DNA from: Prolixibacteraceae bacterium | Lineage (GTDB): Bacteria > Bacteroidota > Bacteroidia > Bacteroidales > Prolixibacteraceae | Reading direction: 5' to 3' | Length of the DNA: 40,188 nt | Assembly: GCA_025355875.1 (NCBI GenBank) | Contig: JANXYV010000198.1 | Location: 1-40,188 of the forward strand | Notes under the pieces: model-generated | What the model was told of the DNA's origin: nothing | Databases searched by the model: none | What the model saw: the letters and a program-made list of their open reading frames with translations, nothing else | Made by a program: the position numbers and the translations under genes | Shown here: positions 173-24,651 of the stretch, piece by piece | Layout: each line of letters opens with the position of its first letter | Numbering within the stretch: position 1 is the stretch's first letter

Positions 173-2032
173 CTAAAATAACCGGATAATCACCAAATCC
201 CATGCTCTAAGCTTCAATATTTTTTCAGAACCTTCCGGTTTTGTTGGGTAAAGAAGTGATCTGATTCTTTTGGATTGAAAGCCGGATCCAATTCTGATTT
301 TGAGGTCTTCCGGTGAAAAACTGAATAGAAACAGTTTGATTTCGCTTTCCGATTTTACGACCAGACCGTCGAACCGAAGTGGGTGCGATGAATGTGAGTG
401 AATGACTTGCCGGTATCCTGAAATCTCTTTCAACGACTCATAAACCGGGAAGATATCATCAGGTTTTGAAGAGAATTTCTCCGGGCAATCCGGCGGAATT
501 TCGCCCTGAATCAGGCCTTTCCATCCAACAGTTTCGTAAAATGTTATTAAACTTGTTTCTGATTGTGCCAAAAATTTCAGACTTCCCAAAGTCCAGCTGG
601 CGGCAAAAACCGAAGGCTGACGAACATCGACCGACGAAGGCAACGTTCCGGCTGGAGGTTCCGGTTCCGGAGCTGTTGCCACCACGTTGAACCGTTGCCG
701 CAAACTAACCGGCGAGATGAAAATGGGCTTTCCGGGAAATAGTTTCTGAGCTGATTTGATAACTTCAGCCTGCGCTTCGAGGTTTTCGACCAGCGAAGCA
801 TGATCGAACGAGTGAACCTGCGGACAGATAGTAAAACTCACAAAATCAGCTTTTTCGATAGCCGGACGGTTTCGGTTGAGCTCGGCAAAATAGGCATTCA
901 CGCCGGTTCCCAATTGGATTCCTTGAAAATCTTGCCGGATCTGATGTTCAAGTTCGTCAAACCCTGTGAAAGGCAGATGATTTTTGCCCAGCGGGAGCAA
1001 AAATTTTGGCGCAACTTTCATTTCTCTGCAAAGTTCGGTAAACCGACGGTAATCATTTTTCCAATTCAGAGAAAGATACAGCGCCACAAACAGCGGCCAA
1101 CCGAGCAAATGGCTTTCTTTGGCCGCTTTTTCAAACTCATTACTGAATTTGTCCTCCCAGGGTTTAAGTTCCACCCGTATATGTTCTGCCGGAAGCTTTT
1201 TAAGCAGTTCAATTTCATTTGGAGCTAATGTTTCCTTTCTTGAACTGATTGTAGTTCCCAGTTCAGGAAAGGCTGAAACCTGATCCGGATTCCAGGAAAA
1301 CTCGAAATGATCAGCCGTTCGTCCGGATTGGAGAGAAGTTTCAACGGTCAATTCGACAAGCTGAGAAACAGTTTCAGCCGCCCTAATTTCCACAGGATAA
1401 GGAATTGAAAGCGGCGTGCAATAGGTTTTAAATGACGCGTCGGTCCAGTTTCGGTGATCTTCCATCTCAAAAACATCACCGGTCAGGTTCAGCGTCGCCT
1501 CGATTCCCGGTTGCGGTTCCCAGGTTATGGATTGGATATCCTGTGCAGGTTGAACACTGGAAATTTGCTCCGGAAAAGAAAAATCGGAAACCGATCTGTC
1601 GGGATGAATTACCCGGGCTTTTCTACCCACGCAATCGGTCAACGGATGCAAAATACAGAATCCAATCCGGTTTTTCAGGAAGGTAGATCGTGCGGTTCCA
1701 TCCATTTCGAAGCGAATTTTGTTTTCCGTTCCTGAAATCCGGTAATCTGCCGAAAAATGAATCGGATCAGCATCATAGTTGACTTTCAACCGAATATCGA
1801 AGGAATTTTCATGTATTTCGATGGTTTCTGTTTCGATTTTAGGTTCGATCGTACCCCAGTTTCGGTCGCGGACAGCCGAATAAACCATCCGGAGAATCTC
1901 TGTGTTCCCAAGTCTGATCCAGCGAATGGCACCATATTCATAAGTCACTTCCAGTTGTCCTGCCTTCAGTATTGTTTGTTTTGGAAGCGAATCCGACATT
2001 CCATAAGCTTTGATTCGTTGTTCAGGGGTCAT
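173..2032 (-). CDS. apnL: D-apionate lactonase-like protein (ApnL family)
   Basis: This 619-residue protein has no signal peptide, so it is probably cytoplasmic. ApnL enzymes hydrolyse D-apionolactone to D-apionate, the second step of D-apiose catabolism. I recognise the family from its N-terminal pattern: LKAGQLEVTYEYGAIRWIRLG followed by NTEILRMVYSAVRDRNWGT, in which the RxWGT stretch is characteristic. The C-terminal half reads like a glycosidase-type TIM barrel with beta domains, in line with the length of this family. It is the last gene of the minus-strand apiose operon. About 160 bp containing a strong hairpin separate it from the preceding gene, so it may have its own expression level. 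The ATG at 2032 has a plausible hydrophilic start. The assignment is from memory of family sequences plus context; it could also act on a related aldonolactone. Confidence 0.72.
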   Translation of the reverse strand: MTPEQRIKAYGMSDSLPKQTILKAGQLEVTYEYGAIRWIRLGNTEILRMVYSAVRDRNWGTIEPKIETETIEIHENSFDIRLKVNYDADPIHFSADYRISGTENKIRFEMDGTARSTFLKNRIGFCILHPLTDCVGRKARVIHPDRSVSDFSFPEQISSVQPAQDIQSITWEPQPGIEATLNLTGDVFEMEDHRNWTDASFKTYCTPLSIPYPVEIRAAETVSQLVELTVETSLQSGRTADHFEFSWNPDQVSAFPELGTTISSRKETLAPNEIELLKKLPAEHIRVELKPWEDKFSNEFEKAAKESHLLGWPLFVALYLSLNWKNDYRRFTELCREMKVAPKFLLPLGKNHLPFTGFDELEHQIRQDFQGIQLGTGVNAYFAELNRNRPAIEKADFVSFTICPQVHSFDHASLVENLEAQAEVIKSAQKLFPGKPIFISPVSLRQRFNVVATAPEPEPPAGTLPSSVDVRQPSVFAASWTLGSLKFLAQSETSLITFYETVGWKGLIQGEIPPDCPEKFSSKPDDIFPVYESLKEISGYRQVIHSHSSHPLRFDGLVVKSESEIKLFLFSFSPEDLKIRIGSGFQSKRIRSLLYPTKPEGSEKILKLRAWDLVIIRLF

Positions 2033-2119
2033 TTGTGATGATGATGGTTGTTGCTAAATTTTATATGATATCTCTTTGAAGAGCTGAACCTAGATGCTAG
2101 ATATTATATATTATATTTT

Positions 2120-2190
2120 ACTGGAAACTTGATTATGATATCAAGTTTCCAGTATCCCGTTTTCCATATCCAGTATCCAGCATCCAATAT
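2120..2190. repeat. 14-bp perfect inverted repeat plus degenerate CCAGTATCC-type repeats
   Basis: Positions 2120-2153 form a hairpin with a perfect 14-bp stem (ACTGGAAACTTGAT and its complement) and a 6-nt loop. It is followed at about 2150-2190 by short degenerate copies of the words CCAGTATCC and CCAGCATCC. The element fills the gap between the PQQ-propeller gene and apnL. No T-run follows, so it looks more like an intergenic repeat or mRNA-stabilising hairpin than an intrinsic terminator. The repeat runs right up to the stop codon of the propeller gene. Confidence 0.6.
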
Positions 2191-3477
2191 CTAGTTTCCT
2201 GCATCCTTTCCAATCCGATATAACTTCGAATCGGTGCGCAGAAGAATTGAATTCCGCACAATGGCTGGGGTGGCATAAACTTCGCCGGGCAGCTTGTTTT
2301 CAGCAACAAGTTGAAACTGATTTCCTGTCTTGAGAACCATGGTTTCGCCCTTTGCCGAAGTAAAATAAAGATTTCCGTTAGCTAATACCGGCGACGAGTT
2401 GTATTTCTGTTTGAGCTTTTTGGAATAGATTTCAGCACCGGTTTTGGCATCGAGGCAATAGAGCACATTCTTGGTGTCAACCGTGTAAATCAGGCCATCT
2501 TTTATCAACGGAGTGAGCAGTTGCAAAATGGGCGATCTGAATTTCCAAAGCACATTGGTTTTGGTAATATCGCCTTTTCCATCAGGATTTACAGCAAGCA
2601 GTTCAGCCACTTTTTCACCCTCTGTAGGAGAGATAAATCCGGGGTAAAAATACACGATCCCATTTTCAGCCAAAGGCATGGCAATGGTCGAATCTTCGCC
2701 TTCCACCACCCGCCATATTTCTTCTCCGGTTTCAGGATTGTATGCGCAGCAAATGGCCGAACCATTTGAAATTAGCAAATCTTGTCCTTGAACATTTACG
2801 ATGATCGGAGTGATGTATGATTTCTTTCCAATGGGTGCCAAGGGCTCATAAACTGCGCCCGGTCTATCTGTTTTCCAGATCGTTTTCCCCGTCTTTTTAT
2901 CGAGCGCCACCAGGTATTGCACGTCAATCCCTTCCAATTGAAGGATAAGCAGATTCTTATAAAGAATGGGTGATGATCCGGGCCCCTGAACATGCTGGCA
3001 ATTCAAATCAGTACGTTTCCAAACAACTTTTCCATCGGTGGTACTGACGCAAGCTGTCCCGTAAGTTCCAAAATGCAGATAAACAAAACCTTCTTCGATG
3101 CAGGGAGTTGGCGTGGCAAAGGTATTGATGGAATGCTTGGGCTGAAGCGAATCGGGCTGAAACAGAAGAATCTGATGCAGTAGTCTCCCCGTATTCAGAT
3201 CGAGACAAATACCTTTCATTTTCTTTCCATCTTCGGTAGCTGTTGTGACCCAAACCTGATCGCCAAAAACCACGGGTGACGACCATCCTTTCCCGTCCAA
3301 ATCCGTTTTCCAGATGATGTTGGTTGAATCATTCCAGACAACTGGTGCTGAAGCTGTTTCAGAAATTCCATTCAGCTTGCTTCCCCTGAAATGGGTCCAA
3401 TTATCCTGCTGCGCCTTTAAAGCCTGGAAATTCAGGAAAATTAGAAGATAAAGAAAGGTTTTTGTGAAGGTTTTCAT
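2191..3477 (-). CDS. Secreted PQQ-type beta-propeller repeat protein
   Basis: This protein has 428 residues with an N-terminal signal peptide ending near LKAQ (about residue 22). Repeated blade motifs such as GKVVWKR, GKTIWKTD, GEEIWRV and GAEIYSKK mark a PQQ-binding-like (BamB/quinoprotein-type) propeller. The opening NWTHFRG...WKTDL...GWSSPV is typical of the PQQ-like repeat proteins common in Planctomycetes and Bacteroidota polysaccharide loci. I see no separate dehydrogenase domain, so quinone-dependent activity is not implied. It lies between the LamG lipoprotein (8-bp gap) and apnL, inside an otherwise catabolic operon, which suggests a surface or periplasmic role such as substrate binding. 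Its function is unknown. Confidence 0.8.
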   Translation of the reverse strand: MKTFTKTFLYLLIFLNFQALKAQQDNWTHFRGSKLNGISETASAPVVWNDSTNIIWKTDLDGKGWSSPVVFGDQVWVTTATEDGKKMKGICLDLNTGRLLHQILLFQPDSLQPKHSINTFATPTPCIEEGFVYLHFGTYGTACVSTTDGKVVWKRTDLNCQHVQGPGSSPILYKNLLILQLEGIDVQYLVALDKKTGKTIWKTDRPGAVYEPLAPIGKKSYITPIIVNVQGQDLLISNGSAICCAYNPETGEEIWRVVEGEDSTIAMPLAENGIVYFYPGFISPTEGEKVAELLAVNPDGKGDITKTNVLWKFRSPILQLLTPLIKDGLIYTVDTKNVLYCLDAKTGAEIYSKKLKQKYNSSPVLANGNLYFTSAKGETMVLKTGNQFQLVAENKLPGEVYATPAIVRNSILLRTDSKLYRIGKDAGN

Positions 3478-3485
3478 TGGTTCAG

Positions 3486-4184
3486 TTATTTCATTTGTTG
3501 GTTGATCTCGCCTAAAGTCAAAGCTCTTTTGTAAATCTGCACTTCATCAATTGTTCCCTTGAAGCAATCCACCAGGGTTTCATTCCGGTCGTTCGAATTT
3601 CCACCAATCAGCAATGGATTACGGTCGTTAAAATGGATCGGCATCTTGCAACTTGCAGATTTGACGAGCTTTCCGTTGAGATATAATTTGATGGAGTCAT
3701 TATCATAAGTTCCGGCCAGATAGTACCAGATTCCAGGCATGAGAAGATCATCGGCTTTGACGTTCTGGTAACTCTTTCCATCCGGGTCAACAGAAAACAA
3801 GGCTTTGTTCTGATGGACAGCCAACCCGAAATATTCGGACCATCCATTGCCAATTTCTCTGGAAGCCACTGTATTCCAATGCATCGAAGTGTCTTTTTTG
3901 ATCCAGGCCATGACCGTAATTCCTTTGGAAAAGTCATCCAGAACCGGATCATACGAAACCTGCAAAACTGACTTACCATCAAATCTCAAGGCCTGTCCGA
4001 TCTTCCCTTCGACCGGAAATGCCCCTTTATTGACCGCATCCAATACGTGGGGCGACAGGTCGGGTGCCAGAGTCACTGTCGCATTGTCAAACGACCAGTA
4101 TCCCACTAAATCAGGATCGTGAGCTGATGGAGAAATGCAAGAAAACAGAGCAAGACCTGTCAAAAAATATAGGAATTTCTTCAT
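3486..4184 (-). CDS. LamG/concanavalin A-like lipoprotein
   Basis: This 232-residue protein starts MKKFLYFLTGLALFSC, a lipoprotein signal with the lipid-acceptor cysteine at about residue 16. The rest is one LamG-type jelly-roll: YWSFDNAT near the N-terminus, IGQALRFDG, ITVMAWIKKD, WYYLAGTYD, IKLYLNGKL, and the closing FKGTIDEVQIYKRALT, the standard LamG ending. I chose the ATG at 4184 over the one at 4217 because it gives a clean lipoprotein signal and leaves 19 bp after the apnO-like gene instead of overlapping it. A role in binding carbohydrate at the membrane is likely but inferred. It is translated just before the PQQ-propeller gene, so the two may work together. Confidence 0.78.
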   Translation of the reverse strand: MKKFLYFLTGLALFSCISPSAHDPDLVGYWSFDNATVTLAPDLSPHVLDAVNKGAFPVEGKIGQALRFDGKSVLQVSYDPVLDDFSKGITVMAWIKKDTSMHWNTVASREIGNGWSEYFGLAVHQNKALFSVDPDGKSYQNVKADDLLMPGIWYYLAGTYDNDSIKLYLNGKLVKSASCKMPIHFNDRNPLLIGGNSNDRNETLVDCFKGTIDEVQIYKRALTLGEINQQMK

Positions 4185-4203
4185 GCCTGCTAAGTTAGAT
4201 GTT

Positions 4204-5031
4204 TTATGTGATGTCAATCACTTGCTGCAACACATTTTCAGGCTCAAAAATCTGTTTCCAATCGTCTTTGAAAAGGATGCTTCGTCCGCGGGTAAGCGCT
4301 TTGTTGGCAGCATCAGAAAAAACTGCATTTGGTAATTCCTGAAAAAGTACCGCCAGCTGAATGTTGATATGTCCCATCAGGAATTCGCGGGCAGCTTCGC
4401 GTGGAACTCCGCGGGCGATGATTTCTTCCATTCCTTCACGAACCAGATCCAGGCAGGAGGATGATAGGGTTTCGACCAAAGCAGGTTCAAGTAAAGCCAT
4501 TTGCTCCATGGTAATTTTGAAGGCCTTTTTAACCGGTGCATACATGGCGTTGGCAACCGATTCGCCGAGTTCGTAATCTGAATCCGGACCTTGCATCAAG
4601 GCACAGACAATGGTTTGTTTAGCCAAAGTTCCGCCGAAAAAATCGGCTTGTGCTTCCGGAGTTGGTTCCCAATTGAACACCGATGGATGCGATGGGTGCG
4701 CGATAAAATAGGAAATATCTTCCCGTAAAAACAACCTGCCAGCCCTGGCTACAGCCGGATCAAGCGTCATCAGCAGCGAGCCAGGTGTCATTTCAGGGAT
4801 GATTGTTGCAGAAACTTTGGCCAGTGCCACATCCGGAACAGCCAGAATTACCACATCTGCATCCGAAACAACATGTTCTGCAGTGGAGGTCGAAATTCCC
4901 AATTCAGCCAGTTTTTGCTGACCGGCTTCGCTGATTTCTACGTAACTCATTTCAAAGGAAGAATCTTTTAGGTTGCGGGTCAGACGCATTCCCATTTTTC
5001 CTCCGGCACCGATAATTGTTACTTTTTTCAT
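4204..5031 (-). CDS. apnO: D-apionate oxidoisomerase-like NAD-dependent dehydrogenase (ApnO family)
   Basis: This protein has 275 residues, cytoplasmic. ApnO converts D-apionate to 3-oxo-isoapionate with NAD+. The N-terminus is a Rossmann dinucleotide fold (VTIIGAGGKMGMRL, residues 3-16) with VVILAVPD near residue 65. The motif FIAHPSHPSVFN at about 109-120 and the helical C-terminal part (EQMALLEPALVETL, LVREGMEEIIARGVP, FLMGHINIQLAVLF) match the 6-phosphogluconate-dehydrogenase-like C-terminal domain of the ApnO family as I remember it. It sits between the broken isomerase/garR remnant and the LamG gene, in the same operon as the apsD-, oiaC- and apnL-like genes. An alternative is an oxidoreductase of this fold acting on another branched aldonate. 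Confidence 0.75.
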   Translation of the reverse strand: MKKVTIIGAGGKMGMRLTRNLKDSSFEMSYVEISEAGQQKLAELGISTSTAEHVVSDADVVILAVPDVALAKVSATIIPEMTPGSLLMTLDPAVARAGRLFLREDISYFIAHPSHPSVFNWEPTPEAQADFFGGTLAKQTIVCALMQGPDSDYELGESVANAMYAPVKKAFKITMEQMALLEPALVETLSSSCLDLVREGMEEIIARGVPREAAREFLMGHINIQLAVLFQELPNAVFSDAANKALTRGRSILFKDDWKQIFEPENVLQQVIDIT

Positions 5032-5044
5032 TTTGATAATGATT

Positions 5045-5077
5045 AGCTCCCTCCAACCTCCCCCGATGGGTGAGGCT
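5045..5077 (+). repeat. 33-bp dispersed repeat, copy 1
   Basis: The C-rich word AGCTCCCTCCAACCTCCCCC followed by GATGGGTGAGGCT lies in the 75-bp gap before the apnO-like gene. Its reverse complement recurs at 37324-37356 with few differences. Similar C/G-rich intergenic repeats are widespread in Bacteroidota genomes. Confidence 0.6.
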
Positions 5078-5106
5078 TATGAGTAGCGATTATTAATTAA
5101 GTTTTA

Positions 5107-5403
5107 CTATTGCTTTTTCACTTCGGTTTGAGCCATCTTTTCAAAATATTGAACCAGACTGCAGTGGTCATTTTCCTGCTTGCCATCGACTTTCAGTGCC
5201 TGCATCATTTCCATAACCGCGCTGGTTAATGGCAGTGGTACGCCTACCTGATGCCCGGTTTCAATGGCATTGGCGAGGTCTTTGATATGAAGTTTGATTT
5301 TGAATCCGGGATTGAAATTTCGGTTCAGAATCATAGGTGTTTTGGCATTCATTACGGTGCTTCCGGCTAATCCGCCCTTGATGGCTTCGAAAACCAATTC
5401 AGG
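5107..5403 (-). pseudogene. garR: C-terminal remnant of a GarR-type 2-hydroxy-3-oxopropionate reductase
   Basis: From about 5403 the minus strand encodes 98 residues starting PELVFEAIKGGLAGSTV and including FNPGFKIKLHIKDLANA, the C-terminal third of the beta-hydroxyacid dehydrogenase family (tartronate semialdehyde reductase, about 295 residues). The NAD-binding domain and the catalytic lysine region are absent. The remnant is joined out of frame to the 5' part of an isomerase gene, so no reductase can be made. The pairing with a hydroxypyruvate-isomerase-like fold suggests that a former glyoxylate/hydroxypyruvate gene pair was here. The alternatives are a deletion of roughly 1 kb in the genome or an assembly error. 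Confidence 0.75.
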
Positions 5404-5813
5404 ATATCCACGAACATGTCGCGGGTGTAGGCTACCGGTTTGTGGCTGATGGCCGGTTCGCGGAAAATGCCAATGTTGGCAAAACAGTTGAACCGCGCAG
5501 CAGCCCGGATCATGCTTTGAAATTTTAGTACTGCTTTCTCCTGAATTTCCTTCTTCTCGTGAATGAGTGTTACGCCGTATTGCGAGTACAACCTTCCGGA
5601 GTTGATGCTCGACATGGTGAGTTGGTGTTCGTTCAAGGCTTTTTCCAGCCGGTCCCATTCAAACTCATCGGGATTGGGAGTGATCAATTCTACCGCGTCG
5701 AACCCGGCTTCTGCAGTTTTACGGATATTATCTTCAATTTCTCCTTTGTACAGATGTACATAATCCACATCGGGCATGTCGGGGGTTGCAATAAAAAGTG
5801 ATGTTTTAATCAT
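5367..5813 (-). pseudogene. Truncated TIM-barrel sugar isomerase (AP endonuclease 2 family), fused to garR remnant
   Basis: The reading frame gives 148 residues, of which about 137 look native. MIKTSLFIATPD, the alpha/beta pattern AGFDAVELITPN, and EKAVLKFQSMIRAAARFNCFANIGIF are typical of xylose-isomerase-like TIM barrels (usually about 280 residues). After YTRDMFVDIL the frame runs into the garR remnant and ends at a TAG after about ten foreign residues. The metal-binding half of the barrel is therefore missing and the product should be inactive. The start ATG at 5813 is 11 bp after the MDR dehydrogenase. The original substrate is unknown; a hydroxypyruvate-isomerase-like role would fit the adjoining garR piece. 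Confidence 0.72.
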
Positions 5814-5824
5814 ATCGTGTGGTT

Positions 5825-6838
5825 TTAAAATTCAATGATTACCTTGCCTTCGTTGGCCATGTTTTTTGTGGTATATTCCAGTGCTTCAACTATTTGGCTG
5901 AACGTAAACTTCTTTGTGATCAGCAAGTCAGCATGGGTTTTTCCGGAAGCAATGGCATCGATTACAGCCGGAAATTCGCCTGCACTGTTGCGAGTACCAA
6001 GAATATTCATTTCGCGTTTGGTAAAGTTGATTCCGGTAAATGCTACCTTTTCATTAGTTAAACCTGCAATGACGATAGTACCGCCAGCAGCAACAAGGTT
6101 TTCTGTATTTTCCATGACCGATCGCACGCCAGTGGCTTCAATCACAATTCCTGCGCCTTCATTGTTGGTGATTTCCATCACTCTGGCCAATAAATCTTCT
6201 TTCGACGGATCGATCACGAAATCGGCGCCAAATTTCAAGACCATTTCTTTTCGGAATTCCGACATCTCGGCCACCAGAACGCGTGCTCCGGCAATTTTAG
6301 CAAAATCGATGGCGGTTAGGCCAATGGCTCCAGCACCAAGAATGAGTACCGTATCGCCAGCGCTTACCTTTGCCCCTGATGTAGAATGATTTCCGATGGT
6401 ATAAGGTTCGGCTGTAGCAGCCAAATCGACCGGCATACCTTCGGGAATGAGGTGAACTTTGTTTGCCGGAACAGCCAGGTAATCGGAAAATCCGCCATCC
6501 ATATGAGCGCCAATCACCTCCAAACTTACACAACAATTGTATTTTCCTTTTCGGCAAGGGAAACAGGTTCCGCAAGCCAGAAGTGGCTCAATTACCACGC
6601 GGTCGCCCGGCAGAACCTTGGATACACCTTCACCAACCTGATCAATTTCTCCGGCCAGTTCGTGACCGTGAATTCGGGGATACATTTTGTAAGGATGACT
6701 TCCTTCGAAGAAATGTACATCGCTGCCACAGATTCCGGCGGCCTTTATTTTTACTAAGACTTCACCCGGTTTTATAACCGGCACCGGAACCTCTTCAAGC
6801 CTGACATCGAAAGGCGCGTATTGTACAGCTGCTTTCAT
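5825..6838 (-). CDS. Zinc-dependent MDR alcohol/polyol dehydrogenase
   Basis: This is a 337-residue cytoplasmic medium-chain dehydrogenase, the usual length for sorbitol or L-threonine dehydrogenase relatives. Catalytic zinc ligands are visible as GICGSD (Cys37) and GHE (His59/Glu60). The structural zinc site has Cys89, Cys92, Cys95 and Cys103 or Cys102 in CGTCFPC...NCC. The NAD-binding motif GAGAIG is near residues 168-173. It lies 8 bp after the apsD-like gene in the apiose operon. The upper apiose pathway does not need it. It may oxidise or reduce a downstream polyol or ketose (L-erythrulose is the predicted pathway product) or serve another sugar. The substrate cannot be read from the sequence. 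Confidence 0.85.
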   Translation of the reverse strand: MKAAVQYAPFDVRLEEVPVPVIKPGEVLVKIKAAGICGSDVHFFEGSHPYKMYPRIHGHELAGEIDQVGEGVSKVLPGDRVVIEPLLACGTCFPCRKGKYNCCVSLEVIGAHMDGGFSDYLAVPANKVHLIPEGMPVDLAATAEPYTIGNHSTSGAKVSAGDTVLILGAGAIGLTAIDFAKIAGARVLVAEMSEFRKEMVLKFGADFVIDPSKEDLLARVMEITNNEGAGIVIEATGVRSVMENTENLVAAGGTIVIAGLTNEKVAFTGINFTKREMNILGTRNSAGEFPAVIDAIASGKTHADLLITKKFTFSQIVEALEYTTKNMANEGKVIIEF

Positions 6839-6846
6839 GAGATTTT

Positions 6847-7866
6847 CTAAAAAAAGATTACTTTACCTGATCTTGCTGATTCGTAGGCTCCGAAAACCAT
6901 TTGTACGGTTTTGAAATTGTCGTCGCCAGTGTTCTCAGCTTTGGCTTTTCCCAGAATATTCTGAAGAATATTGTTGTTGCAGGCCACGATGCTTGGCGGT
7001 TCGACCGACAACCGCGGATGATCCCAGGAATAGTGCGGAATGGTGATGGTCTCGGTAGTGGTTCCTTCTTTGGTGGTAATTTTGATCATAAAGTCCGGAT
7101 CGATTTTCACACTCCCTTCCGAACCTTCAATCAGGAGCAACGTTTGCGGAAAAATTTCTCGTTCGAGCCTCGAAGTGAACGATATTTCCTGCTCACAGAC
7201 GACCCCGCTTTTCATTTTGATCATTGTAGTTACAACATCTTCGCCTTTGATAGTCGGATTGATCTGCTGTGTGAGGCAATACAATGATTCAGGTTCACCA
7301 AACAGAAATCGCAGCAAGTCAAACTGATGCGAACCCTGATCGGTTAAGGCAAATTGCTCGAGTTCGGCCAGAAACGGCTGGGTTTCGAACAGCGGGAAAG
7401 CGGTGTTGAAATTGGTTTTGCAACGGTATGGCTTCCCGATAATACCTGAATCCAGAATCTCTTTGATCCGCCGGAATTGCGGTTGCCAGCGATAATTCTC
7501 GTGGCAATAGTATTTCACACCAGCTGCTTTGGTGACCGCCATCATCCGTTCGGCGATGGCCAAACTTGGAGCCATCGGTTTTTGGGTAATGACGTGCTTC
7601 CCATATTTGGCGGCCATTTCAACAAACTTACAATGGGTGTCGACATCCGTAATGATATCAATTACATCTACTTCGTGATTCCGGAATATTTCTTCAGCAT
7701 CGTTATAGCAATGTTGAATACCGAAGCGTTCTGCAACTATTTTGGCTTTTTCCAAAGTTCGATTATAAAGCGCAACAATTTCTACTTCCGGAAGTTCCTG
7801 CCAGGCTCCAATCTGAAATTGTGACCAGAACCCGGTTCCAAATACGGCAATCTTAAGTTTTGTCAT
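6847..7866 (-). CDS. apsD: D-apiose dehydrogenase-like Gfo/Idh/MocA oxidoreductase (ApsD family)
   Basis: This 339-residue cytoplasmic protein starts MTKLKIAVFGTGFWSQFQ, a Rossmann NAD(P) motif. Other landmarks are VALYNRTLEKA, VDVIDIITDVDTH, the family lysine/proline motif TQKPMAPS, and the substrate-domain segments HENYRWQPQFR and FALTDQGSHQFDLLRFLFGE. The GFW and HENYRW patterns match ApsD sequences as I recall them; these oxidise D-apiose to D-apionolactone. The ATG at 7866 overlaps the oiaC stop as ATGA, so the two are translationally coupled; a longer open frame upstream to 7989 runs inside oiaC and is not used. Other Gfo/Idh/MocA sugar dehydrogenases remain possible, but four apiose-type neighbours favour this call. 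Confidence 0.75.
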   Translation of the reverse strand: MTKLKIAVFGTGFWSQFQIGAWQELPEVEIVALYNRTLEKAKIVAERFGIQHCYNDAEEIFRNHEVDVIDIITDVDTHCKFVEMAAKYGKHVITQKPMAPSLAIAERMMAVTKAAGVKYYCHENYRWQPQFRRIKEILDSGIIGKPYRCKTNFNTAFPLFETQPFLAELEQFALTDQGSHQFDLLRFLFGEPESLYCLTQQINPTIKGEDVVTTMIKMKSGVVCEQEISFTSRLEREIFPQTLLLIEGSEGSVKIDPDFMIKITTKEGTTTETITIPHYSWDHPRLSVEPPSIVACNNNILQNILGKAKAENTGDDNFKTVQMVFGAYESARSGKVIFF

Positions 7867-8678
7867 GATATCGCTTTTAATTTTTTCAGGTTTGTAATGC
7901 TTTGTTCTGCCCAATCGTTTTCTTTCCGGATGGTTTCTTCGATAGTTTCTGAAGGCGGCGTCCAGAGTTCGAGAATGGCCGATTTGCATTTACCGGTTTT
8001 TTCGATGGTTTCCAGCAACGACGGAATGTTCAGCATTCCTTCGCCAGCCGGAAGTCCTTCGACTACGAAGCCCATTTTATGGCTCACCCGTTTGATTACG
8101 AATTCTTTCAGGTGCAGATTGATGGTAAAAGGTGCCAGTGTCCGAACCACTTCTTCGATTCCTTCACCGGCACCGATGCTGTTTACCGAGTCGAGACAGA
8201 TTCCAACCCATTCAGGATCGGTTTCTGTGATCATTTGTGAAAATTCATAGCTTTTAAACCGATCGTGATTTTCGATGGCCAGGCGGATGTTGTTCACTTT
8301 CAGCTGTGGAACCATTTCTTTGAGAATTTCAATGACTTCATCAAGGCTTGGTTCAAAACCCGGTCCGTCAATCACGATCCGGAGAATATCCGAATGGAGC
8401 CGTTTGGCAATGGCCAGATAAGCAGACACATTTTGTGCGGTCAATCCACGGGTTCCTACTTCGATAGAAATTCCTTTTCTTTTTGAATAAACTAAAAGCT
8501 GATCCAGTTCTTCTTCAGAAAGCAGATGCAACGGACTGTTATCAGCGATCTGAATTACTTTTAGTTGGTGACTAAATGCCAGATCTACCAATTGAAATAG
8601 CGTCATCGGGTTTTCCGGCCGATGTCCCGGTACGCCAATCGCCCAGGTGTATGCGTAGGTTGATAATCCGAGATTCAT
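7863..8678 (-). CDS. oiaC: 3-oxo-isoapionate decarboxylase-like TIM-barrel protein (OiaC family)
   Basis: This 271-residue protein has the xylose-isomerase-like TIM-barrel fold and no signal peptide. OiaC decarboxylates 3-oxo-isoapionate to L-erythrulose. Matching landmarks are LSTYAYTWAIGVPG at the start, IQIADNSPLH, IEVGTRGL, LAIENHD, CLDSVNSIGAGEG, NLHLKEF, GFVVEGLPAGEG and ILELWTPP. The conserved Glu, Asp, His and Glu in these barrel ends are the expected metal ligands. It overlaps the apsD-like start by 4 bp (ATGA), the tightest coupling in the operon. Without context it would be annotated only as a sugar phosphate isomerase/epimerase. Confidence 0.72.
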   Translation of the reverse strand: MNLGLSTYAYTWAIGVPGHRPENPMTLFQLVDLAFSHQLKVIQIADNSPLHLLSEEELDQLLVYSKRKGISIEVGTRGLTAQNVSAYLAIAKRLHSDILRIVIDGPGFEPSLDEVIEILKEMVPQLKVNNIRLAIENHDRFKSYEFSQMITETDPEWVGICLDSVNSIGAGEGIEEVVRTLAPFTINLHLKEFVIKRVSHKMGFVVEGLPAGEGMLNIPSLLETIEKTGKCKSAILELWTPPSETIEETIRKENDWAEQSITNLKKLKAIS

Positions 8679-8689
8679 GTTTTTGAATT

Positions 8690-8744
8690 GTTACGGGTTT
8701 CAAGTTACAGGTTCCGGATTTTCATGTAAAGCGAAACTCGTAAC
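8690..8744. repeat. Imperfect inverted repeat between GH140 and oiaC
   Basis: Arms at 8690-8701 (GTTACGGGTTTC) and 8733-8744 (GAAACTCGTAAC) pair at 11 of 12 positions around a loop of about 31 bases. The element occupies the 85-bp gap between the GH140 gene and the oiaC-like gene. It may set different transcript levels for the secreted and cytoplasmic parts of the operon, or be a dispersed intergenic repeat. Confidence 0.45.
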
Positions 8745-8763
8745 CCGCAACTAAATTGAATGA

Positions 8764-10191
8764 TCACTTCTTAGTTCCCGGAGCACCATATTTCTTCGCT
8801 GCATCATCCAAAACCAGAATCCAGTCTGTGCTTTCACCCGGTTCAGGAGAGATAAATTCTTTGTTTCCTAAATTGGCGAATTTGCCGATCTGTTTAGCGG
8901 ATCCGTTGCGCGGATTGTACCACCAGGCATTCACCTCTTTGCCTTTGATGACATCCATCCGAACGCTGAATTTCCGGCCAACAGGCACATAAACCATCGC
9001 ATAAGTTCCTTCCTGATCGCGGGTAGCTACAAATTGATATGCTCCGGCACCCGGAACTGAAGTTGGAACATCGGAAGTAACTATGATCGAACTGTCCGGG
9101 ATTCGGGTAAGGAACGGACGCGATTCCATCAATAGTCTGCCGTGTATCATTTGTGCTGCACCTGGCTGATCAATGGCTTCGGTCCAGGGCATCAACGGAC
9201 GATTGATCGGCTCACGCTCACGTGAATACATCTGCCAAACAGAATGGTGTCCATAGGTGTGTCCACAAGCTCCGCTGAACAAATCCCAGTATACTGGACG
9301 TCGTACATCTGCTGCAACCGAATGACCATTCTGATCAGAATTAAAATTGATCGGATGATCCTCGTAAATAGGTTCTGCATCAAGGACGGGCTTCACCGGA
9401 GTCAGATTGTAATCATCCAATGTTGAATGGTAACGTTCAGTATAACTCTGGCTGTGGCCATTCTGACGCATGTTGAAATCGAGCCAAGAATCGTTTTGAA
9501 AGTACTGCGACGAGCCACTTCCCCCGGTTGGATGAAAAGAAATCAAATGGTTACCACCATCGCCTTCACGCAAACCTTTCGCCATTTCTGTGATGATCTG
9601 CCGGTGCAGATCTGTTTCAACCGGACGGTCGCCGCCCAAAATCCAGATGATATTCGGACTGTTTTTATAACGGCTTCCAATGAATTTTCCATATATTTTG
9701 GCATTTTCAGGAGTAAATATTTCGGGACCAACCCCCCATTTTTTGTTCCATTTATCGCCCCAGGTTGGCAAAAGTCCAATAAAAATTCCTTTTTCTTCCG
9801 CCTTTTTAATTACCCAATCGACATGGGTAAAATACTTTTCATTTGGTTTAGTTGGATCGTTATTGATCAGCGGTTTCTCACCTTCCGCATTCGGAATGTT
9901 CAGACCATCCATCTCTGCCAAAGCAACGGCCTGAATAACCGTAAATCCTTTCGAACGGCGGTTTTCGAGGTATTTTTCGGTGTCGGTTTTATTTAAACGA
10001 TGAAACAATTCCCAGCCGGTATCCGCCAGATAGAAAAACGGGGTGTTGTCTTCAAAAACCAGAAAGCGTTTGTTCTCTGAAACTTTAAGTTTTCCGTGTT
10101 TGAAATCGACCGATTTGCCTTGCCATTGTTGCGCGTTTGAGATTTTAGAAACAAGGAGAAAAACTACAATGAGTAAAAGAATCCGTTTCAT
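8764..10191 (-). CDS. Secreted GH140 apiosidase
   Basis: This protein has 475 residues with a signal peptide (about residues 1-20, ending SNAQ). The catalytic domain is the DUF4038/apiosidase type (PF13204). It includes [43 protein letters not shown], the acid/base motif GGDRP with Asp188, and the nucleophile motif DAEPIYED with Glu273. These correspond to the Asp/Glu pair of characterised GH140 enzymes that cleave apiose from galacturonan in rhamnogalacturonan II. The C-terminal 90 residues ([11 protein letters not shown]... [10 protein letters not shown]) match the collagen-bind-2 type beta domain usually found in this family. It is the second gene of the operon, 10 bp after the transporter. 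Its substrate could be RG-II, apiogalacturonan or apiosides. Confidence 0.88.
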
Positions 10192-10201
10192 TTTTTCAGG
10201 C

Positions 10202-11218
10202 TTAAATATTTGAGACCGTAATTAATATCAGACCAATGATGTAGAAAGAGAACATGATTACCAGGTATCTGATGGTAGTACTGTCGGCATCTTTGAATTC
10301 TTTCCAGACAAAAATTCCCCAGATCATGGCAACTACCGGTGCTGCATTGCTCAGTGCATAAGCGATTGCAGGGTTTGCCGCGCCAACAGCCATAAAGCTA
10401 ACCACCATTCCGAGGCACCAAATCATTCCACCAAGTATTCCGGAGAAATGTTCTTTGCCTGTTCCGGCAAAATACATTTTCATAGTTACCGGTTCACCTT
10501 CAACTGGTTTTGCCATAAAAACTGGATTGATCAGGATTGTACTGATGAGCACGCCGATTGAAAAGAAAAACAAGGCAGTATAAGGTGTCAAATGCCCAGT
10601 ACTGCCTAAAATGTAGTCTGGATCGATCGATTTAACGACAAATCCGTAGAAAAAAGCGATGATGATACCCGCAATAACCGACAGTGTGATTCCGGTTAAC
10701 GAAGGTTTTTTCCGGATTTTTGATACCCTTTTGTAAATGATGCTACTGATATAAATGGCCGAGACAATGATTGCAACGCCAATCCAAAGCAATGCCGGTT
10801 TTTGTGATGCGGTGCCACCTCCCGAAACTACAATGATGTAATTAACTACAGTTCCCATAATCCAGGCAATACCTCCCCCAATCGGGAAAGCGATTGACAT
10901 TCCGGCCACTGAAATGGCTGCTACCAGCAGCAAAGTTCCCAGGTTCCAGAGCGCTCCGCCCAACATGGCAAATCCGATACTTTTTAAGTCAGCCTGCCGA
11001 ATGTCTTCCAGAAAGCTGCGTCCGTCACTTCCGAAACTGCCAAGGGTAAATGCCGCAAGGGTGCATAAGATAACAATGCCAAGAACCATATCCCAGTAAA
11101 ACAGTTCGAAACGCCAGGTTTTCTGAACCATTTTTTGGGTATTCGCCCACGATCCCCAGCAAATCATGGCGAAAACACAGAAAAGAATTGCAAGCCAGTA
11201 ATTGGTTAGAATAATCAT
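10202..11218 (-). CDS. RhaT/GRP-type sugar permease, probable apiose importer
   Basis: This protein has 338 residues and about ten hydrophobic membrane segments. The first segment [18 protein letters not shown], and [41 protein letters not shown], match the drug/metabolite superfamily glucose/rhamnose (GRP/RhaT) permeases. It is the first gene of the apiose operon. It is separated by 181 bp from the divergent regulator and preceded by a TACTTTTG -7 box. Apiose transport is inferred from position only; L-rhamnose or another pectin sugar is possible. Confidence 0.8.
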
Positions 11219-11334
11219 AAATTCAGGTTTTTCTTTAGTTACAGCTATAAATAAGAAGTTCCCGGCTTCTGGTAACGAGCAATTAGCTGCCAGACACCAA
11301 TAGAACTATTTCAACTTTACCATACTTATACAAT

Positions 11335-11342
11335 CAAAAGTA
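11335..11342 (-). promoter_or_regulatory. Promoter of the apiose operon (-7 box TACTTTTG)
   Basis: The minus strand reads TACTTTTG, a full match to the Bacteroidota -7 consensus TAnnTTTG, about 115 bp upstream of the transporter start. No good -33 TTG is seen at the normal distance, which suggests dependence on an activator bound at block 2. The same box occurs in promoter copy B and before the gene at 24718-28341. Confidence 0.55.
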
Positions 11343-11353
11343 GAGTTTCTGCT

Positions 11354-11361
11354 TATCTTTG
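11354..11361 (+). promoter_or_regulatory. Promoter of the GntR-LacI regulator (-7 box TATCTTTG)
   Basis: TATCTTTG matches TAnnTTTG and lies 38 bp before the regulator ATG at 11400. It is only 11 bp from the divergent operon -7 box, so RNA polymerase footprints on the two promoters would overlap. The box is absent from copy B at 32 kb, where no regulator gene follows, which supports it as the regulator's own promoter. Confidence 0.5.
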
Positions 11362-11399
11362 CACTTTTCCATTGGATATGTTATAAAATACCTTTGCTT

Positions 11400-12413
11400 A
11401 TGAATTGGTCGTTTCAAATTGAACCGAAGTCAATTACTCCGGTTTACAGACAAATGATTCAGAATGTTCTGGACGGAATAGGACAAAAGAGAATTAATCT
11501 TGGTATGAAAATGCCCTCCATTCATAAAATTGGAGAAGAATTCGGTCTGGCACCTGGTACAGTAATCAGAGCCTATGAAGAACTTCGTGAAATGGGCCTG
11601 ATTTCGTCAAAACAAGGCAAAGGCTATTACATTTCAAGCATTCAGATTCAGGAAAAAGTAAAGGTTTTTCTGTTATTTGACCGGATGAATGCCTATAAGG
11701 AAATTTTATATGACGCTATCCATCACAATCTGAATCCCGGAATAGAAATGGATGTATTTTTTCATCACTATGATCTCAAACGCTTTGAAAAACTGATTCG
11801 CGGAAACCTTGGGAAATATAGTTTTTATGCGGTGATGCCGCATTTTAATGAAGATGTTTCGAAAATTTTGGCAAAAATTCCGGAACGAAAACTAATTATC
11901 ATGGACAAAGCCGTTCAAGGACTAAAGGGTAAATATGCCGCTATTTTTCAGGATTTTGAGGCGGACATTTATCAAGGCCTGATTTCTCAGCGAGAAAGAA
12001 TCAATCCTTACAAGCATTTTGTTTTCAGCAGTTCCGAAAGTCCATTTCAGTTTATTCCAGATGGTTGTATCAAAGGATTTAAGCGGTTTTGCAACGAAAC
12101 TGGAATCCCATTCGAAATAGTCAGGAAGCTGGATTTGACTATGATTAAACAGAAAACTATCTATTTGCTATACAGCGATATGGAATTAATTGGTCTGATC
12201 AAAGAGGTTGAATCCCGAAATTGGATACCGGGAAAAGATGTAGGAATCATTTCATACGATGAAACGCCAATGAAAGAAATACTTCAAGGCGGTATATCTG
12301 TGCTGTCAACGGATTTCAGACAAATGGGTAAACAGGTCGCTTCTTTCATTAATGGTGATTCTTTCACACAAAAAACCAATCCATTTCAGTTAATTCTCAG
12401 GAATTCCATTTGA
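11400..12413 (+). CDS. GntR-LacI chimeric transcriptional regulator (AraR-like architecture)
   Basis: This 337-residue protein starts at the ATG at 11400, not the in-frame TTG 6 bp earlier. Residues 1-75 form a GntR winged helix: ITPVYRQMIQNVLDGI, LGMKMPSIHKIGEEFGLAPGTVIRAYEELREMGLI and SKQGKGYYIS. The rest is a LacI/periplasmic-binding-protein sensor: FYAVMPHF, LIIMDKAV, the hinge segment, and VGIISYDETPMKEIL followed by GGISVLSTDFRQMGKQVA. Such chimeras (AraR type) sense a free sugar. It is divergent from the apiose operon, so it very likely controls the operon and itself, with apiose or a pathway intermediate as ligand (inference). It ends 23 bp from the convergent MFS gene. Confidence 0.85.
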   Translation: MNWSFQIEPKSITPVYRQMIQNVLDGIGQKRINLGMKMPSIHKIGEEFGLAPGTVIRAYEELREMGLISSKQGKGYYISSIQIQEKVKVFLLFDRMNAYKEILYDAIHHNLNPGIEMDVFFHHYDLKRFEKLIRGNLGKYSFYAVMPHFNEDVSKILAKIPERKLIIMDKAVQGLKGKYAAIFQDFEADIYQGLISQRERINPYKHFVFSSSESPFQFIPDGCIKGFKRFCNETGIPFEIVRKLDLTMIKQKTIYLLYSDMELIGLIKEVESRNWIPGKDVGIISYDETPMKEILQGGISVLSTDFRQMGKQVASFINGDSFTQKTNPFQLILRNSI

Positions 12414-12436
12414 GTAATTCCATTACTTTGAAGGTT

Positions 12437-13660
12437 CTAATTGCGTTTGATTTTTGGCGTTTGATTTTTGCTTTTCAGTGCAAAAAACAACACATACCCG
12501 TAAGTGGCAATGCTGACAATAAACGAATATTTCAAACCTAACCAATCGGCCATTTTACCCTGAATAACCGGGAGTAGTGCAGCTCCAAGAAATCCCATGG
12601 TCAGCAAACCTGAAGCCATGGCGGTGTTTTTTCTCAATCCCTTGATTGAAATGGCATAAAGTGTCGGAAAAAAGATAGAAATAAAGAATCCCAGCAAGGT
12701 TATAGCGATCACAGCAACAATGCCTGTTGACATCATCATTACCGATAATAAAATCATAGCAGCAAGTACGCCATAAACCAGCGTCAAAGCCGGGTTGATT
12801 CGTTTTTGAATATATGCTCCAACTAGCCTACCAACAGCAAATGTGGCAAAGTAAATGGTGTATAGAATGTATGACTGATGCGAACTCAAAGCAGCAATCG
12901 AAGGGTCTTCCAGATAATTACGATACAAGCCGAAAATACCCGATTCGGCGCCTAAAGCAATGAAAATGGCCACAAAACCCAAAATCAGGTTTTTGTTTTT
13001 CCAGATCGATTCGGATGAATCTGATTCATTCATTTGAATCTCAGCTGAATCTTCAAAACTGATTCTTTCACCTTTCAATACCAATGTGAGAACACCGGTA
13101 AGTACAAGAATTACAGCAATTGCCAGAAACAGTCCATTCATGTAAGGAATTTTATCTGCTACACTAACCACTGTTGGCGGTAGGATAAGCAAAATAATAA
13201 GTGGTGCGATAATCTGGGCAATAGCACCCAAAGCGTTCCCCAAATTCAGGCGGCTCGAACTTCCGGATGGATCGCCAAGTCCTGATAGCAAAGGATTTCC
13301 GGCGACCAGTTCAAAGTTAAAACCAATACCGATAATGAAAAATGCAAGCAAAATCAATGCGTAATTTCCTGAATTCAAGCCCGGAACCAACAAGGCTGTT
13401 CCGGCAGCAAAAAGGAATATGGCGATAGTCAAACAGTTTTTGAACCCAATTTTTTTCGAGAGCCAGCCAATCAATATTGAGAAAACGACAAAAGGAATGT
13501 TTTTGGCGAACATGGTGTACATTTGCTGTTGATAGCTCAGTTGAAAGTGTTCTTTGAATTCAGGCATAAAAGCACCCTCGAAACACATGGCCATGCCACA
13601 AAAAAAGTAAATAAAATACACCGAATAAAGAAGTCGGTCGTTTGCTTGATTTTTTGCCAT
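12437..13660 (-). CDS. MFS sugar:proton symporter (FHS/FucP-like)
   Basis: This protein has 407 residues and about twelve membrane segments. The start MAKNQANDRLL at 13660 is preferred: it follows a GGAG-like ribosome site, lies 7 bp after the epimerase stop, and avoids the 34-residue basic extension of the longer open frame. The first helix region LLYSVYFIYFFCGMAMCFEGAFMPEF and the loop GWLSKKIGFKNCLTIAIFLFAAG resemble the fucose/glucose-galactose FHS family. It is the last gene of the second minus-strand run. A substrate such as apiose, an apiose-containing oligosaccharide or another pectic sugar cannot be decided from sequence. Confidence 0.8.
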   Translation of the reverse strand: MAKNQANDRLLYSVYFIYFFCGMAMCFEGAFMPEFKEHFQLSYQQQMYTMFAKNIPFVVFSILIGWLSKKIGFKNCLTIAIFLFAAGTALLVPGLNSGNYALILLAFFIIGIGFNFELVAGNPLLSGLGDPSGSSSRLNLGNALGAIAQIIAPLIILLILPPTVVSVADKIPYMNGLFLAIAVILVLTGVLTLVLKGERISFEDSAEIQMNESDSSESIWKNKNLILGFVAIFIALGAESGIFGLYRNYLEDPSIAALSSHQSYILYTIYFATFAVGRLVGAYIQKRINPALTLVYGVLAAMILLSVMMMSTGIVAVIAITLLGFFISIFFPTLYAISIKGLRKNTAMASGLLTMGFLGAALLPVIQGKMADWLGLKYSFIVSIATYGYVLFFALKSKNQTPKIKRN

Positions 13661-13667
13661 TTGGAGG

Positions 13668-14696
13668 TTATTTAGTTGTAAATTTCTGATCAATTTCAGC
13701 CTCAAATGCCCGCCATTCCTTAACAATGCGATCATAGAACGGATAATTGTCCGAGTTCTCAATCAGATTGTGTTCCATCAGGTATTCGATGCACATTTTC
13801 ACACCTTCTTCATAGCTGATGGTTTGCTTGAAACCCAGGTCACGCTTGGCTTTCGAATTGTCGAGAATGTTATTGTGCATGAAATTTTCGACACACCATT
13901 CTGATTCAGCCGGAGCCATTTTCGACAGAATATGTGTCGGAATGTACACGAAATCAGGTTCTGGTGCATTCATCACTTTGGCGATGGTCAGCCACATTTG
14001 TTTGATGGTAAACATTTCGTCGCCATTGGCATTGTAAGCTTCGCCAAACGTCTTTTTATTACCGATTGCCCCAACAAATGCGCTGGCCGTCACATCGCGA
14101 TAAACTGCTGTCCAAACAGAAGTGCCGTCGCCATGCAGAATGAAAGGTTTTCCTTTCATTAGTCGGTCAAGATGATAGGTTTGGCCGCCAAAACTATGAA
14201 CTCCCGGGCTCCAAGACTCGTTGAAAGTGGCAGCCGGACGAATTACTGTGAGCTGAAAGTTTCCTTTTTGATGAGCCTCCCAAAATAGTTTCTCGCATTC
14301 AACTTTCTTCCAGACATATGGAAAAGTTGGAGAAGCGCCAATCGCAAAAGTTTCATCTACCGGAAAAGCTGATCCGGTTTTTGGATACACATCAACCGTG
14401 CTGCAAAAAATGAATTGTTTGGTGCGGCCTTTAAAAAGAGCGATGTCTTTCGCTGCTTCTTCCGGTTCAAAGCAAATCATGTCAACCACAGAGTCGTAAT
14501 TTCCATCTTCGAAAATCTGTTTCTCAAACTGAGGTAAATCCGAGCGATTACCAACAATCACTTTTACTTCAGGCAAAAGCCATTCCGGACGAGTTTGATC
14601 GTTATTAAACAAGGTGATGTCATGTCCTTTCCCCTGCAACATTTTGGTGATCGGCGTACTGATATTACCGGTACCTCCAATGATTAATAATTTCAT
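13668..14696 (-). CDS. NAD-dependent epimerase/dehydratase (extended SDR)
   Basis: This 342-residue cytoplasmic protein starts MKLLIIGGTGNISTPI, a GxxGxxG-type Rossmann motif at residues 7-12. DSVVDMICFEPEE and FIFCSTVDVYP are typical SDR strands. A catalytic Tyr/Lys pair is visible as YVWKKVECEK. The ATG at 14696 is chosen because the open frame upstream to 14843 consists of a low-complexity lysine/arginine repeat region. The WCVENFMHNN and SKAKRDLGFKQ segments resemble nucleotide-sugar or sugar epimerase relatives of the isoflavone-reductase/CSP41 type. It is paired with an MFS transporter and a cytoplasmic GH140. The reaction is not known. Confidence 0.75.
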   Translation of the reverse strand: MKLLIIGGTGNISTPITKMLQGKGHDITLFNNDQTRPEWLLPEVKVIVGNRSDLPQFEKQIFEDGNYDSVVDMICFEPEEAAKDIALFKGRTKQFIFCSTVDVYPKTGSAFPVDETFAIGASPTFPYVWKKVECEKLFWEAHQKGNFQLTVIRPAATFNESWSPGVHSFGGQTYHLDRLMKGKPFILHGDGTSVWTAVYRDVTASAFVGAIGNKKTFGEAYNANGDEMFTIKQMWLTIAKVMNAPEPDFVYIPTHILSKMAPAESEWCVENFMHNNILDNSKAKRDLGFKQTISYEEGVKMCIEYLMEHNLIENSDNYPFYDRIVKEWRAFEAEIDQKFTTK

Positions 14697-14750
14697 ATCT
14701 AGATTCTTGTATCGGGTAAAATTCTTTAATTTAAGGAGGAAGAGAAAAAA

Positions 14751-14828
14751 GGAAAGAGAAAAGTCTTTTTCCCGTCTCCGGACTTCTGTCTTCGGTCTCC
14801 CTTTTCCTATTTCCCTTTTTCTCTTTCC
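14751..14828. repeat. Inverted repeat spanning the 3' end of the second GH140 gene
   Basis: Arms at 14751-14763 (GGAAAGAGAAAAG) and 14815-14828 (CTTTTTCTCTTTCC) flank a CT-rich segment with GTCTCCGGACTTCTGTCTTCGG. The element fills the gap before the epimerase gene. It also encodes the last six or seven residues (EREKGK) and the stop of the GH140 protein. It looks like an intergenic mobile repeat that invaded the gene end. Confidence 0.5.
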
Positions 14829-16081: not shown

Positions 16082-16084
16082 GAC

Positions 16085-17470: not shown

Positions 17471-17525
17471 ATTTCAGGTTTAAGTATGAACTGTATTTTG
17501 AAATTCTAATATTCAAACTTACTTC

Positions 17526-19700: not shown

Positions 19701-19726
19701 AAGCCAATGATAATATTTCCAAAGTA

Positions 19727-21028: not shown

Positions 21029-21077
21029 ATCATTAAGTTTAATAAATTTAGTATCCTTCACTCTATATTTCAAGGCT

Positions 21078-23333: not shown

Positions 23334-23358
23334 GGTACGGATTGTTTGTTGTCTGTTT

Positions 23359-24630: not shown

Positions 24631-24651
24631 ATATAATATTTTAACACAAAG

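Follow-up and report, generated by a model that had tools for sequence, protein, structure and literature searches.

We analysed a window of 40,188 nucleotides, contig C73 of the draft genome of a Prolixibacteraceae bacterium (5.18 Mb in 230 contigs, 97.9% complete), whose segment 173-11218 is probably an operon for the utilisation of D-apiose, all substrates and activities being predicted from sequence. Borate crosslinks rhamnogalacturonan II (RG-II) through apiose, which is also a side group in duckweed and seagrass pectin and a part of many plant glycosides. Part of this is stated in PMC11747546 as well. The segment is a single minus-strand run of ten gene positions, with gaps of -14 to 158 bp between the open reading frames (ORFs) as listed. 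In the direction of transcription it holds a permease, an apiosidase-family protein, a TIM barrel, a Gfo/Idh/MocA dehydrogenase (hereafter Gfo), a zinc dehydrogenase, a broken remnant, ApnO, a LamG lipoprotein, a pyrroloquinoline quinone (PQQ)-type propeller and ApnL, and the gene of a GntR-type regulator starts divergently at 11400 (Table 1).

The original prediction for this DNA had placed a glycosidase, a permease, four apiose-type genes and a divergent regulator in one minus-strand run, and all of them lie where it had put them. The LamG lipoprotein and the PQQ propeller that it had added to the run are also there, as indicated by their domains (PF13385, 94.8 bits; PF13360, 91.1 bits). It had no mention of the intact zinc dehydrogenase (5825-6838) or of the remnant (5107-5813). 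Gene content, synteny and the conservation of the promoter and of motifs were observed directly, and the run is presumably co-transcribed.

Table 1. Features of the locus and the matches on which their names are based
Feature	Position	Strand	Match or remark
ApnL-like D-apionolactone hydrolase (lactonase)	173-2032	-	NF049900, 303.7 bits, E 2.6e-90; no signal peptide seen
PQQ_2/BamB-like beta-propeller, accessory	2191-3477	-	PF13360, 91.1 bits; signal-peptide-like start
LamG-domain lipoprotein	3486-4184	-	PF13385, 94.8 bits; lipobox-like start; listed ORF start is TTG at 4217
ApnO-like D-apionate oxidoisomerase	4204-5031	-	PF16896, 210 bits; PDB 5t57, 300.8 bits
Broken remnant: N half of IolO-like TIM barrel + reductase end	5107-5813	-	frame shift between halves
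Zinc-dependent alcohol/polyol dehydrogenase (PRK10083/IolM-like), intact frame	5825-6838	-	PF08240/PF00107; NF007489, 268.2 bits, cut-off 376
ApsD-like Gfo/Idh/MocA dehydrogenase	6847-7866	-	PDB 5uhw, 229.9 bits; listed start 7989 falls within neighbouring gene
Xylose-isomerase-like TIM barrel, OiaC candidate (3-oxo-isoapionate decarboxylase)	7863-8678	-	PF01261, 64.4 bits
Exported apiosidase-family glycosidase (GH140-like)	8764-10191	-	PF13204, 408.3 bits, + PF12904; PDB 8t9w, 485.8 bits; signal-peptide-like start
Inner-membrane sugar permease (RhaT/ureide-permease-like)	10202-11218	-	PF07168, 98.2 bits; TIGR00776, 42.2 bits vs cut-off 319.6
Conserved divergent promoter/operator block	11309-11390		local alignment with G024 and G010
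GntR-type regulator with unrecognised C-terminal domain, divergent	11400-12413	+	PF00392, 34.6 bits; presumed sensor domain without Pfam match

Recurrence and rarity of the gene cluster

A single protein scan of genome contigs yielded four related loci, three from Prolixibacteraceae and one from a Balneolaceae; genome G010 is of the same genus as the source genome and G024 of the same family. The regulator, the PF13204 gene, the TIM barrel and ApnO are together in all four, and Gfo and ApnL are found in the three whose sequence extends far enough. Locus L042 carries the GntR, permease, GH140-like, TIM-barrel, Gfo, ApnO, PQQ and ApnL genes, all in one direction. In G024 (contig C42, locus L041) the GntR gene is divergent from those of the permease, the TIM barrel, a protein with PF13204 and DUF5060 domains, ApnO, Gfo and ApnL. 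In G010 the locus is divided between two contigs: the first (C64) ends after the GntR, permease, GH140-like, TIM-barrel and ApnO genes, and the second begins with Gfo, PQQ and ApnL; its GntR, GH140-like and ApnO copies are each crossed by a two-base gap of Ns. Locus L043 contains the GntR, GH140-like, TIM-barrel and ApnO genes, after which its contig ends. If the different PF13204 + DUF5060 protein that replaces the GH140-like gene in G024 is counted, all five loci, the window included, have an apiosidase-family gene together with ApnO and the TIM barrel. Chance clustering is rejected by the recurrence in all four related loci.

ApnO was strong in 3 of the 61 genomes of a search among relatives, source genome included, the other matches being weak Rossmann-fold ones, and in 2 of 395 genomes drawn evenly from the phylum, one of them again the source genome. 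Taken together, these results confirm that the gene cluster is real, conserved and rare.

Each of the four other loci has a homologue of the regulator (39-77% identity). We compared the spacer of about 80 bp (11309-11390) with those of G024 and G010, leaving out L042, where the regulator runs in the same direction. The local alignment scores were 81 and 129, respectively, and the best of 300 single-base shuffles reached 30 and 29. A scan for promoters and terminators found no excess over shuffles.

Predicted proteins of the run

The assignment of ApnO, predicted from identity and context, is strong. The protein carries the PGDH_C domain (PF16896). Its identity is 51-52% to the copies of two Shinella plasmids and one Ensifer plasmid, where the neighbours are a Gfo protein, an ApnL-type protein, a regulator and OiaX, and 44% to the Erwinia/Pantoea copy. 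For Gfo, the closest PDB sequence by far was 5uhw (229.9 bits, the next one reaching 77.4 bits), which we take to be ApsD, and the identity to Rhizobiaceae apn-operon copies is 34-35%. ApnL covers positions 2-593 of the 595 of the NF049900 profile, is 29-30% identical to the Rhizobiaceae copies and shares with them 70 positions that are invariant across 8 homologues of both groups, including GDxFEMEDxRNWTDxSxKT. Its structure model (mean predicted local distance difference test score, pLDDT, 68.9; predicted template modelling score, pTM, 0.52) gave Foldseek matches that, as listed, were mostly glycosidases (query TM score 0.22-0.40) and were not used. The ApsD-like and ApnL-like proteins belong to the right families. 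Since these two and the TIM barrel are 27-37% identical to their proteobacterial counterparts, and ApnL stays below its curated cut-off (see below), their substrates are put forward as predictions.

The glycosidase passes PF13204 by a wide margin (408.3 bits, cut-off 26.5). Among PDB sequences it ranked 8t9w, deposited as 'Apiosidase', first (485.8 bits), ahead of 3kzs/5msy (256 bits) and 4qfu (236 bits). We take 3kzs/5msy to be BT1012, the GH140 enzyme of the RG-II system of Bacteroides thetaiotaomicron, so the window enzyme shares with it the PF13204-type fold and motifs but is nearer to 8t9w. The acidic motifs GGD and EPxYE, which presumably carry the catalytic pair of PF13204, are kept in all eight aligned proteins; the G010 operon copy, which holds a gap of Ns, was left out of this alignment. 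According to PMC7939467, BT1012 cleaves the apiose-galacturonic acid (Api-GalA) bond in RG-II. In the source genome as a whole, PF13204 was matched five times, once weakly (29.6 bits).

A permease homologue is present in L042, G010 and G024, and none was found in L043, whose contig ends early. Copies of the PQQ propeller (66-67% identity) lie upstream of ApnL in L042 and G010, and a search of 59 kb around the G024 locus gave none at E 1e-5; a periplasmic role in binding or oxidising sugars is possible for the propeller. For the LamG lipoprotein, seen in the window only, the searched related loci gave no hit at E 1e-5. On the G010 contig that carries PQQ and ApnL of the sister operon (C45, L082), an opposite-strand ORF of 249 residues lies between the two genes (2395-3144).

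Neither the zinc dehydrogenase nor the remnant next to it was matched in the operons of the relatives (E 1e-5), the G010 locus being split over contigs and the L043 contig ending early. The remnant starts with the N-terminal half of an IolO-like TIM barrel and continues, after a change of frame, as the C-terminal 98 or so residues of a tartronate-semialdehyde reductase. Both proteins have counterparts in a second locus of G024, on contig C48 (L074, C48:1-20000; genes at 1606-14370). Its order is a GntR homologue, a TIM barrel, a split transketolase, a major facilitator superfamily (MFS) transporter, a zinc dehydrogenase (46% identical to that of the window), a TIM barrel (31% to the remnant), a phosphotriesterase (PTE)-like protein, Gfo (41%), a reductase and ApnL (37%), and it has the look of an oxidative sugar pathway not yet characterised. 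The reductase end of the remnant is 88% identical over 98 residues to the intact G024 reductase. We read the scar as the probable residue of a piece of a similar locus that entered the operon and then lost its middle; given the differing identities (88% and 31%), the donor would not have been the C48 locus itself. An assembly misjoin at the scar, judged without reads, is unlikely because the flanking genes belong together in the relatives. A dispersed repeat, with 79-92% matches at eight other places of the genome, occupies about 5023-5094, between ApnO and the scar.

Elsewhere in the window, a second PF13204 gene (14807-16081) starts a few residues before its domain, with no visible signal peptide. 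It sits in a separate minus-strand run (12437-24678) with MFS, short-chain dehydrogenase/reductase (SDR), pectate-lyase-like, DUF6259, DUF4185 and GH92 genes, and a GH28-like gene on the same strand (23359-24678) is split by one in-frame stop, probably as a pseudogene or through a sequence error. G010 also has a second pair of a GH140-like and a TIM-barrel gene (C71, L075, 7262-9646), with none of ApnO, Gfo and ApnL matched over the 19 kb viewed. Two large proteins of the window (24718-28341, 1207 residues; 38248-40104, 618 residues) had no Pfam match at E 1e-3; in NCBIfam the former had no match and the latter a sub-threshold twin-arginine (TAT)-signal match only.

The candidate decarboxylase and the end of the pathway

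We propose the following sequence of steps. The exported apiosidase-family enzyme would free D-apiose from a plant glycoside or a pectic side chain, the possible sources being RG-II, apiogalacturonan and apiosides, and the RhaT-like permease would bring it in. The Gfo enzyme would then oxidise D-apiose to D-apionolactone, the ApnL homologue would open the lactone to D-apionate, and the ApnO homologue would convert this, by oxidation and rearrangement, into 3-oxo-isoapionate. The TIM-barrel enzyme would finally yield L-erythrulose and CO2, and the divergent GntR-type protein would control the run via the conserved intergenic site.

For the last enzyme, the OiaC candidate, the proposal draws on its context and on homologues, themselves uncharacterised, with 27-37% identity. 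3-Oxo-isoapionate decarboxylase is a xylose-isomerase-like protein. The TIM barrel has no curated name but is present in all five loci, and its residues E136, D163, H189 and E237, which we assume to be metal ligands, are invariant in five sequences. Its model (mean pLDDT 79.8) had sugar isomerases and epimerases as structural neighbours. The identity is 34-37% to alphaproteobacterial homologues and 27-28% to those of Pantoea and Erwinia. On the Erwinia and Pantoea plasmids the homologue is flanked by a triosephosphate isomerase (TPI)-like gene and by ApnO, with a dihydroxyacetone-type kinase nearby, which in Erwinia was confirmed as Dak1 (PF02733, over the cut-off). A plasmid search with the TIM barrel matched 79 records, 18 of them with a query coverage of at least 80%, and 11 loci were viewed with 6-9 kb on each side: five had a dihydroxyacetone-type kinase, five a split transketolase pair, two ApnO and three none of these. 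We also considered the broken remnant as the OiaC gene and rejected it, the other TIM barrel being the one kept in all five loci; homologues of the remnant were found in only 2 of 60 relatives (24-31% identity).

D-Apionate use has three known ends: decarboxylation of 3-oxo-isoapionate, or its phosphorylation by OiaK followed by the RuBisCO-like OiaX or by OiaT. In the known route through decarboxylation, L-erythrulose is phosphorylated by a Dak1-type kinase. We thus searched the source genome and its four fellows for these families. The OiaK family PF07005 was found in none of the five, and the RuBisCO-like family PF00016 in one, as a single match in the Balneolaceae genome G456. In a control, the kinase at the OiaK position, OiaX and the Erwinia kinase fell in PF07005, PF00016 and PF02733, respectively, which shows that the correct families had been searched. 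The phosphorylated branches via OiaK with OiaX or OiaT are therefore judged unlikely, and decarboxylation to L-erythrulose would be the only known route that fits. The RuBisCO-like reactions are stated in PMC6302742.

Several observations weigh against the proposed pathway. The Dak1-type kinase PF02733 was found neither in the source genome nor in any of the four fellow genomes, in a search whose control gave matches in 3 of 14 named genomes. As three of the five genomes are rated 92-99% complete (two are unrated), it is unlikely that missing contigs account for the lack of this kinase in all five. The search for L-erythrulose enzymes was confined to the Dak1-type kinase. Either L-erythrulose is used in another way or the product differs. 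ApnL, at 303.7 bits, is far below the NF049900 equivalog cut-off of 750, which two Rhizobiaceae ApnL-type proteins passed (813.5 and 816.4 bits); the relatives search had NF049900 matches in 3 of 101 genomes, none over the cut-off. Trees, for which only named rows were used, were poorly resolved: that of Gfo, examined for a grouping of ApsD with apn-operon Gfo proteins, was mostly unresolved with long outgroups, and that of the TIM barrel grouped it with the ApnO-linked Erwinia/Pantoea homologue (87/85) but is drawn unresolved, with long branches. SusC/SusD was absent among the Pfam matches of the 26 window proteins scanned, which leaves the passage through the outer membrane without explanation.

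The second G024 locus is also to be set against the proposal, as it holds ApnL and Gfo without ApnO, together with the PTE-like protein and the split transketolase. Family membership therefore leaves the substrate unfixed, and these families may serve other sugars. The whole operon could then serve another branched or furanose sugar, D-hamamelose for example, with Gfo, ApnL, ApnO and the TIM barrel as substrate-shifted paralogues and a PF13204 enzyme that is no true apiosidase. The low identities of Gfo and ApnL to the Rhizobiaceae copies (29-35%), the ApnL score and the other PF13204 subfamily in the G024 operon all agree with this. We nevertheless consider it unlikely, given the identity of ApnO to copies from operons with Gfo, ApnL and OiaX, the apiosidase-family gene in five of five loci and the 8t9w match of the glycosidase. 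Decay of the operon in the source genome, to the point that the locus no longer works, would agree with the deletion scar that fuses two partial genes (5107-5813); but the remnant is outside the core kept in the relatives, and the core genes have complete open frames free of Ns, which makes this reading very improbable.

A more specific doubt concerns the TIM barrel, which might be an isomerase or an epimerase rather than a decarboxylase, 3-oxo-isoapionate being handled by an unlinked enzyme. This would fit the structural neighbours of the model and the lack of an L-erythrulose kinase in the five genomes, as well as the fact that 9 of the 11 plasmid loci had no ApnO in the stretch viewed, which also counts against the proposed pathway. 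On the other hand, the homologue adjoins ApnO near the Dak1 kinase in Erwinia and Pantoea, and with the OiaK-type kinase absent from five of five genomes and the RuBisCO-like protein from four of five no known alternative remains. An isomerase or epimerase thus seems an improbable choice, and we keep the TIM barrel as the OiaC candidate.

If L-erythrulose is indeed formed, D-apiose catabolism might end without a dihydroxyacetone-type kinase, L-erythrulose being used unphosphorylated (for example as a two-carbon donor to transketolase) or through a kinase of an unexpected family; we regard this as a tentative and rather doubtful possibility. The split transketolase pairs near decarboxylase homologues in alphaproteobacteria (5 of the 11 plasmid loci) point in this direction. 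A protein of split-transketolase size was found in G024, G455 and G456, in the latter two on other contigs than the operon (the operon contigs being short), but not in G010 or in the source genome, where there were full-length matches only. As an operon partner, the split transketolase was set aside because it leaves the missing step in the source genome unexplained, and a transketolase end of the pathway is a conjecture.

Relation to known D-apiose systems

The oxidative D-apiose pathway with the OiaX/OiaK end was reportedly described by Carter et al. in 2018. The Rhizobiaceae plasmids that represent it here (L009-L011) share with the window the ApsD-type Gfo, the ApnL-type protein, ApnO and the regulator; all three loci viewed have apnO, a transporter, Gfo, the ApnL-type protein, the regulator and OiaX. 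They differ in using ABC or TRAP import and OiaX, with an adjacent PF07005 kinase in L010, whereas the window has a single permease, the apiosidase-family enzyme and the TIM enzyme, and a genome with no member of the OiaK family. No match to the window apiosidase-family protein was found within 9 kb of any of the three (tblastn, E 1e-5). The Erwinia/Pantoea run of ApnO, TIM barrel, DhaK and TPI, presumably of the type leading from D-apionate to L-erythrulose, shares with the window the TIM homologue (27-28%) beside ApnO (44%). Unlike the five genomes of the window set, it includes the Dak1 kinase, and none of the three window proteins Gfo, ApnL and apiosidase-family enzyme gave a match in the stretches viewed. 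Growth on D-apiose is described in PMC11747546 for a strain of the Rhodobacteraceae whose annotation includes an apsD/apnL/apnO/oiaK/oiaX set. The non-oxidative pathway of Pectobacterium and E. coli (ApsI, transketolases AptA/AptB), an isomerase and transketolase route according to PMC13001218, starts from the same sugar; unlike it, the window operon has no transketolase gene.

The linkage of an apiosidase with oxidative D-apiose enzymes, as the original prediction had it, is real and recurs in the related loci. Its likeness to apsD, apnL, apnO and oiaC held well for ApnO (51-52%), held at the family level for ApsD (35%) and ApnL (29-30%), the latter falling short of its cut-off (303.7 vs 750 bits), and for OiaC would follow from context and 27-37% identity. 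Catabolism to L-erythrulose is plausible, but the known onward route did not hold, the Dak1 kinase not being found in the five genomes. The literature searched, in which subscription journals are thinly covered, had no description of an operon joining GH140 with apsD/apnL/apnO, so that its absence from print is not established. The enzymes are of known kinds; as far as could be tested, the novelty lies in how they are arranged, in the group of hosts and in the missing end, which makes the locus a variant of known D-apiose catabolism and no new type of system.

Altogether, these data expose a gap, as five genomes seemingly make L-erythrulose without the known kinase. If the tentative end without a dihydroxyacetone-type kinase is true, an operon with its own apiosidase would form a module from glycoside to central metabolism with a new ending. 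A conserved operon that joins the hydrolase with the oxidative enzymes indicates which apiosidases feed which pathway, and it offers a testable candidate sensor and operator for apiose.

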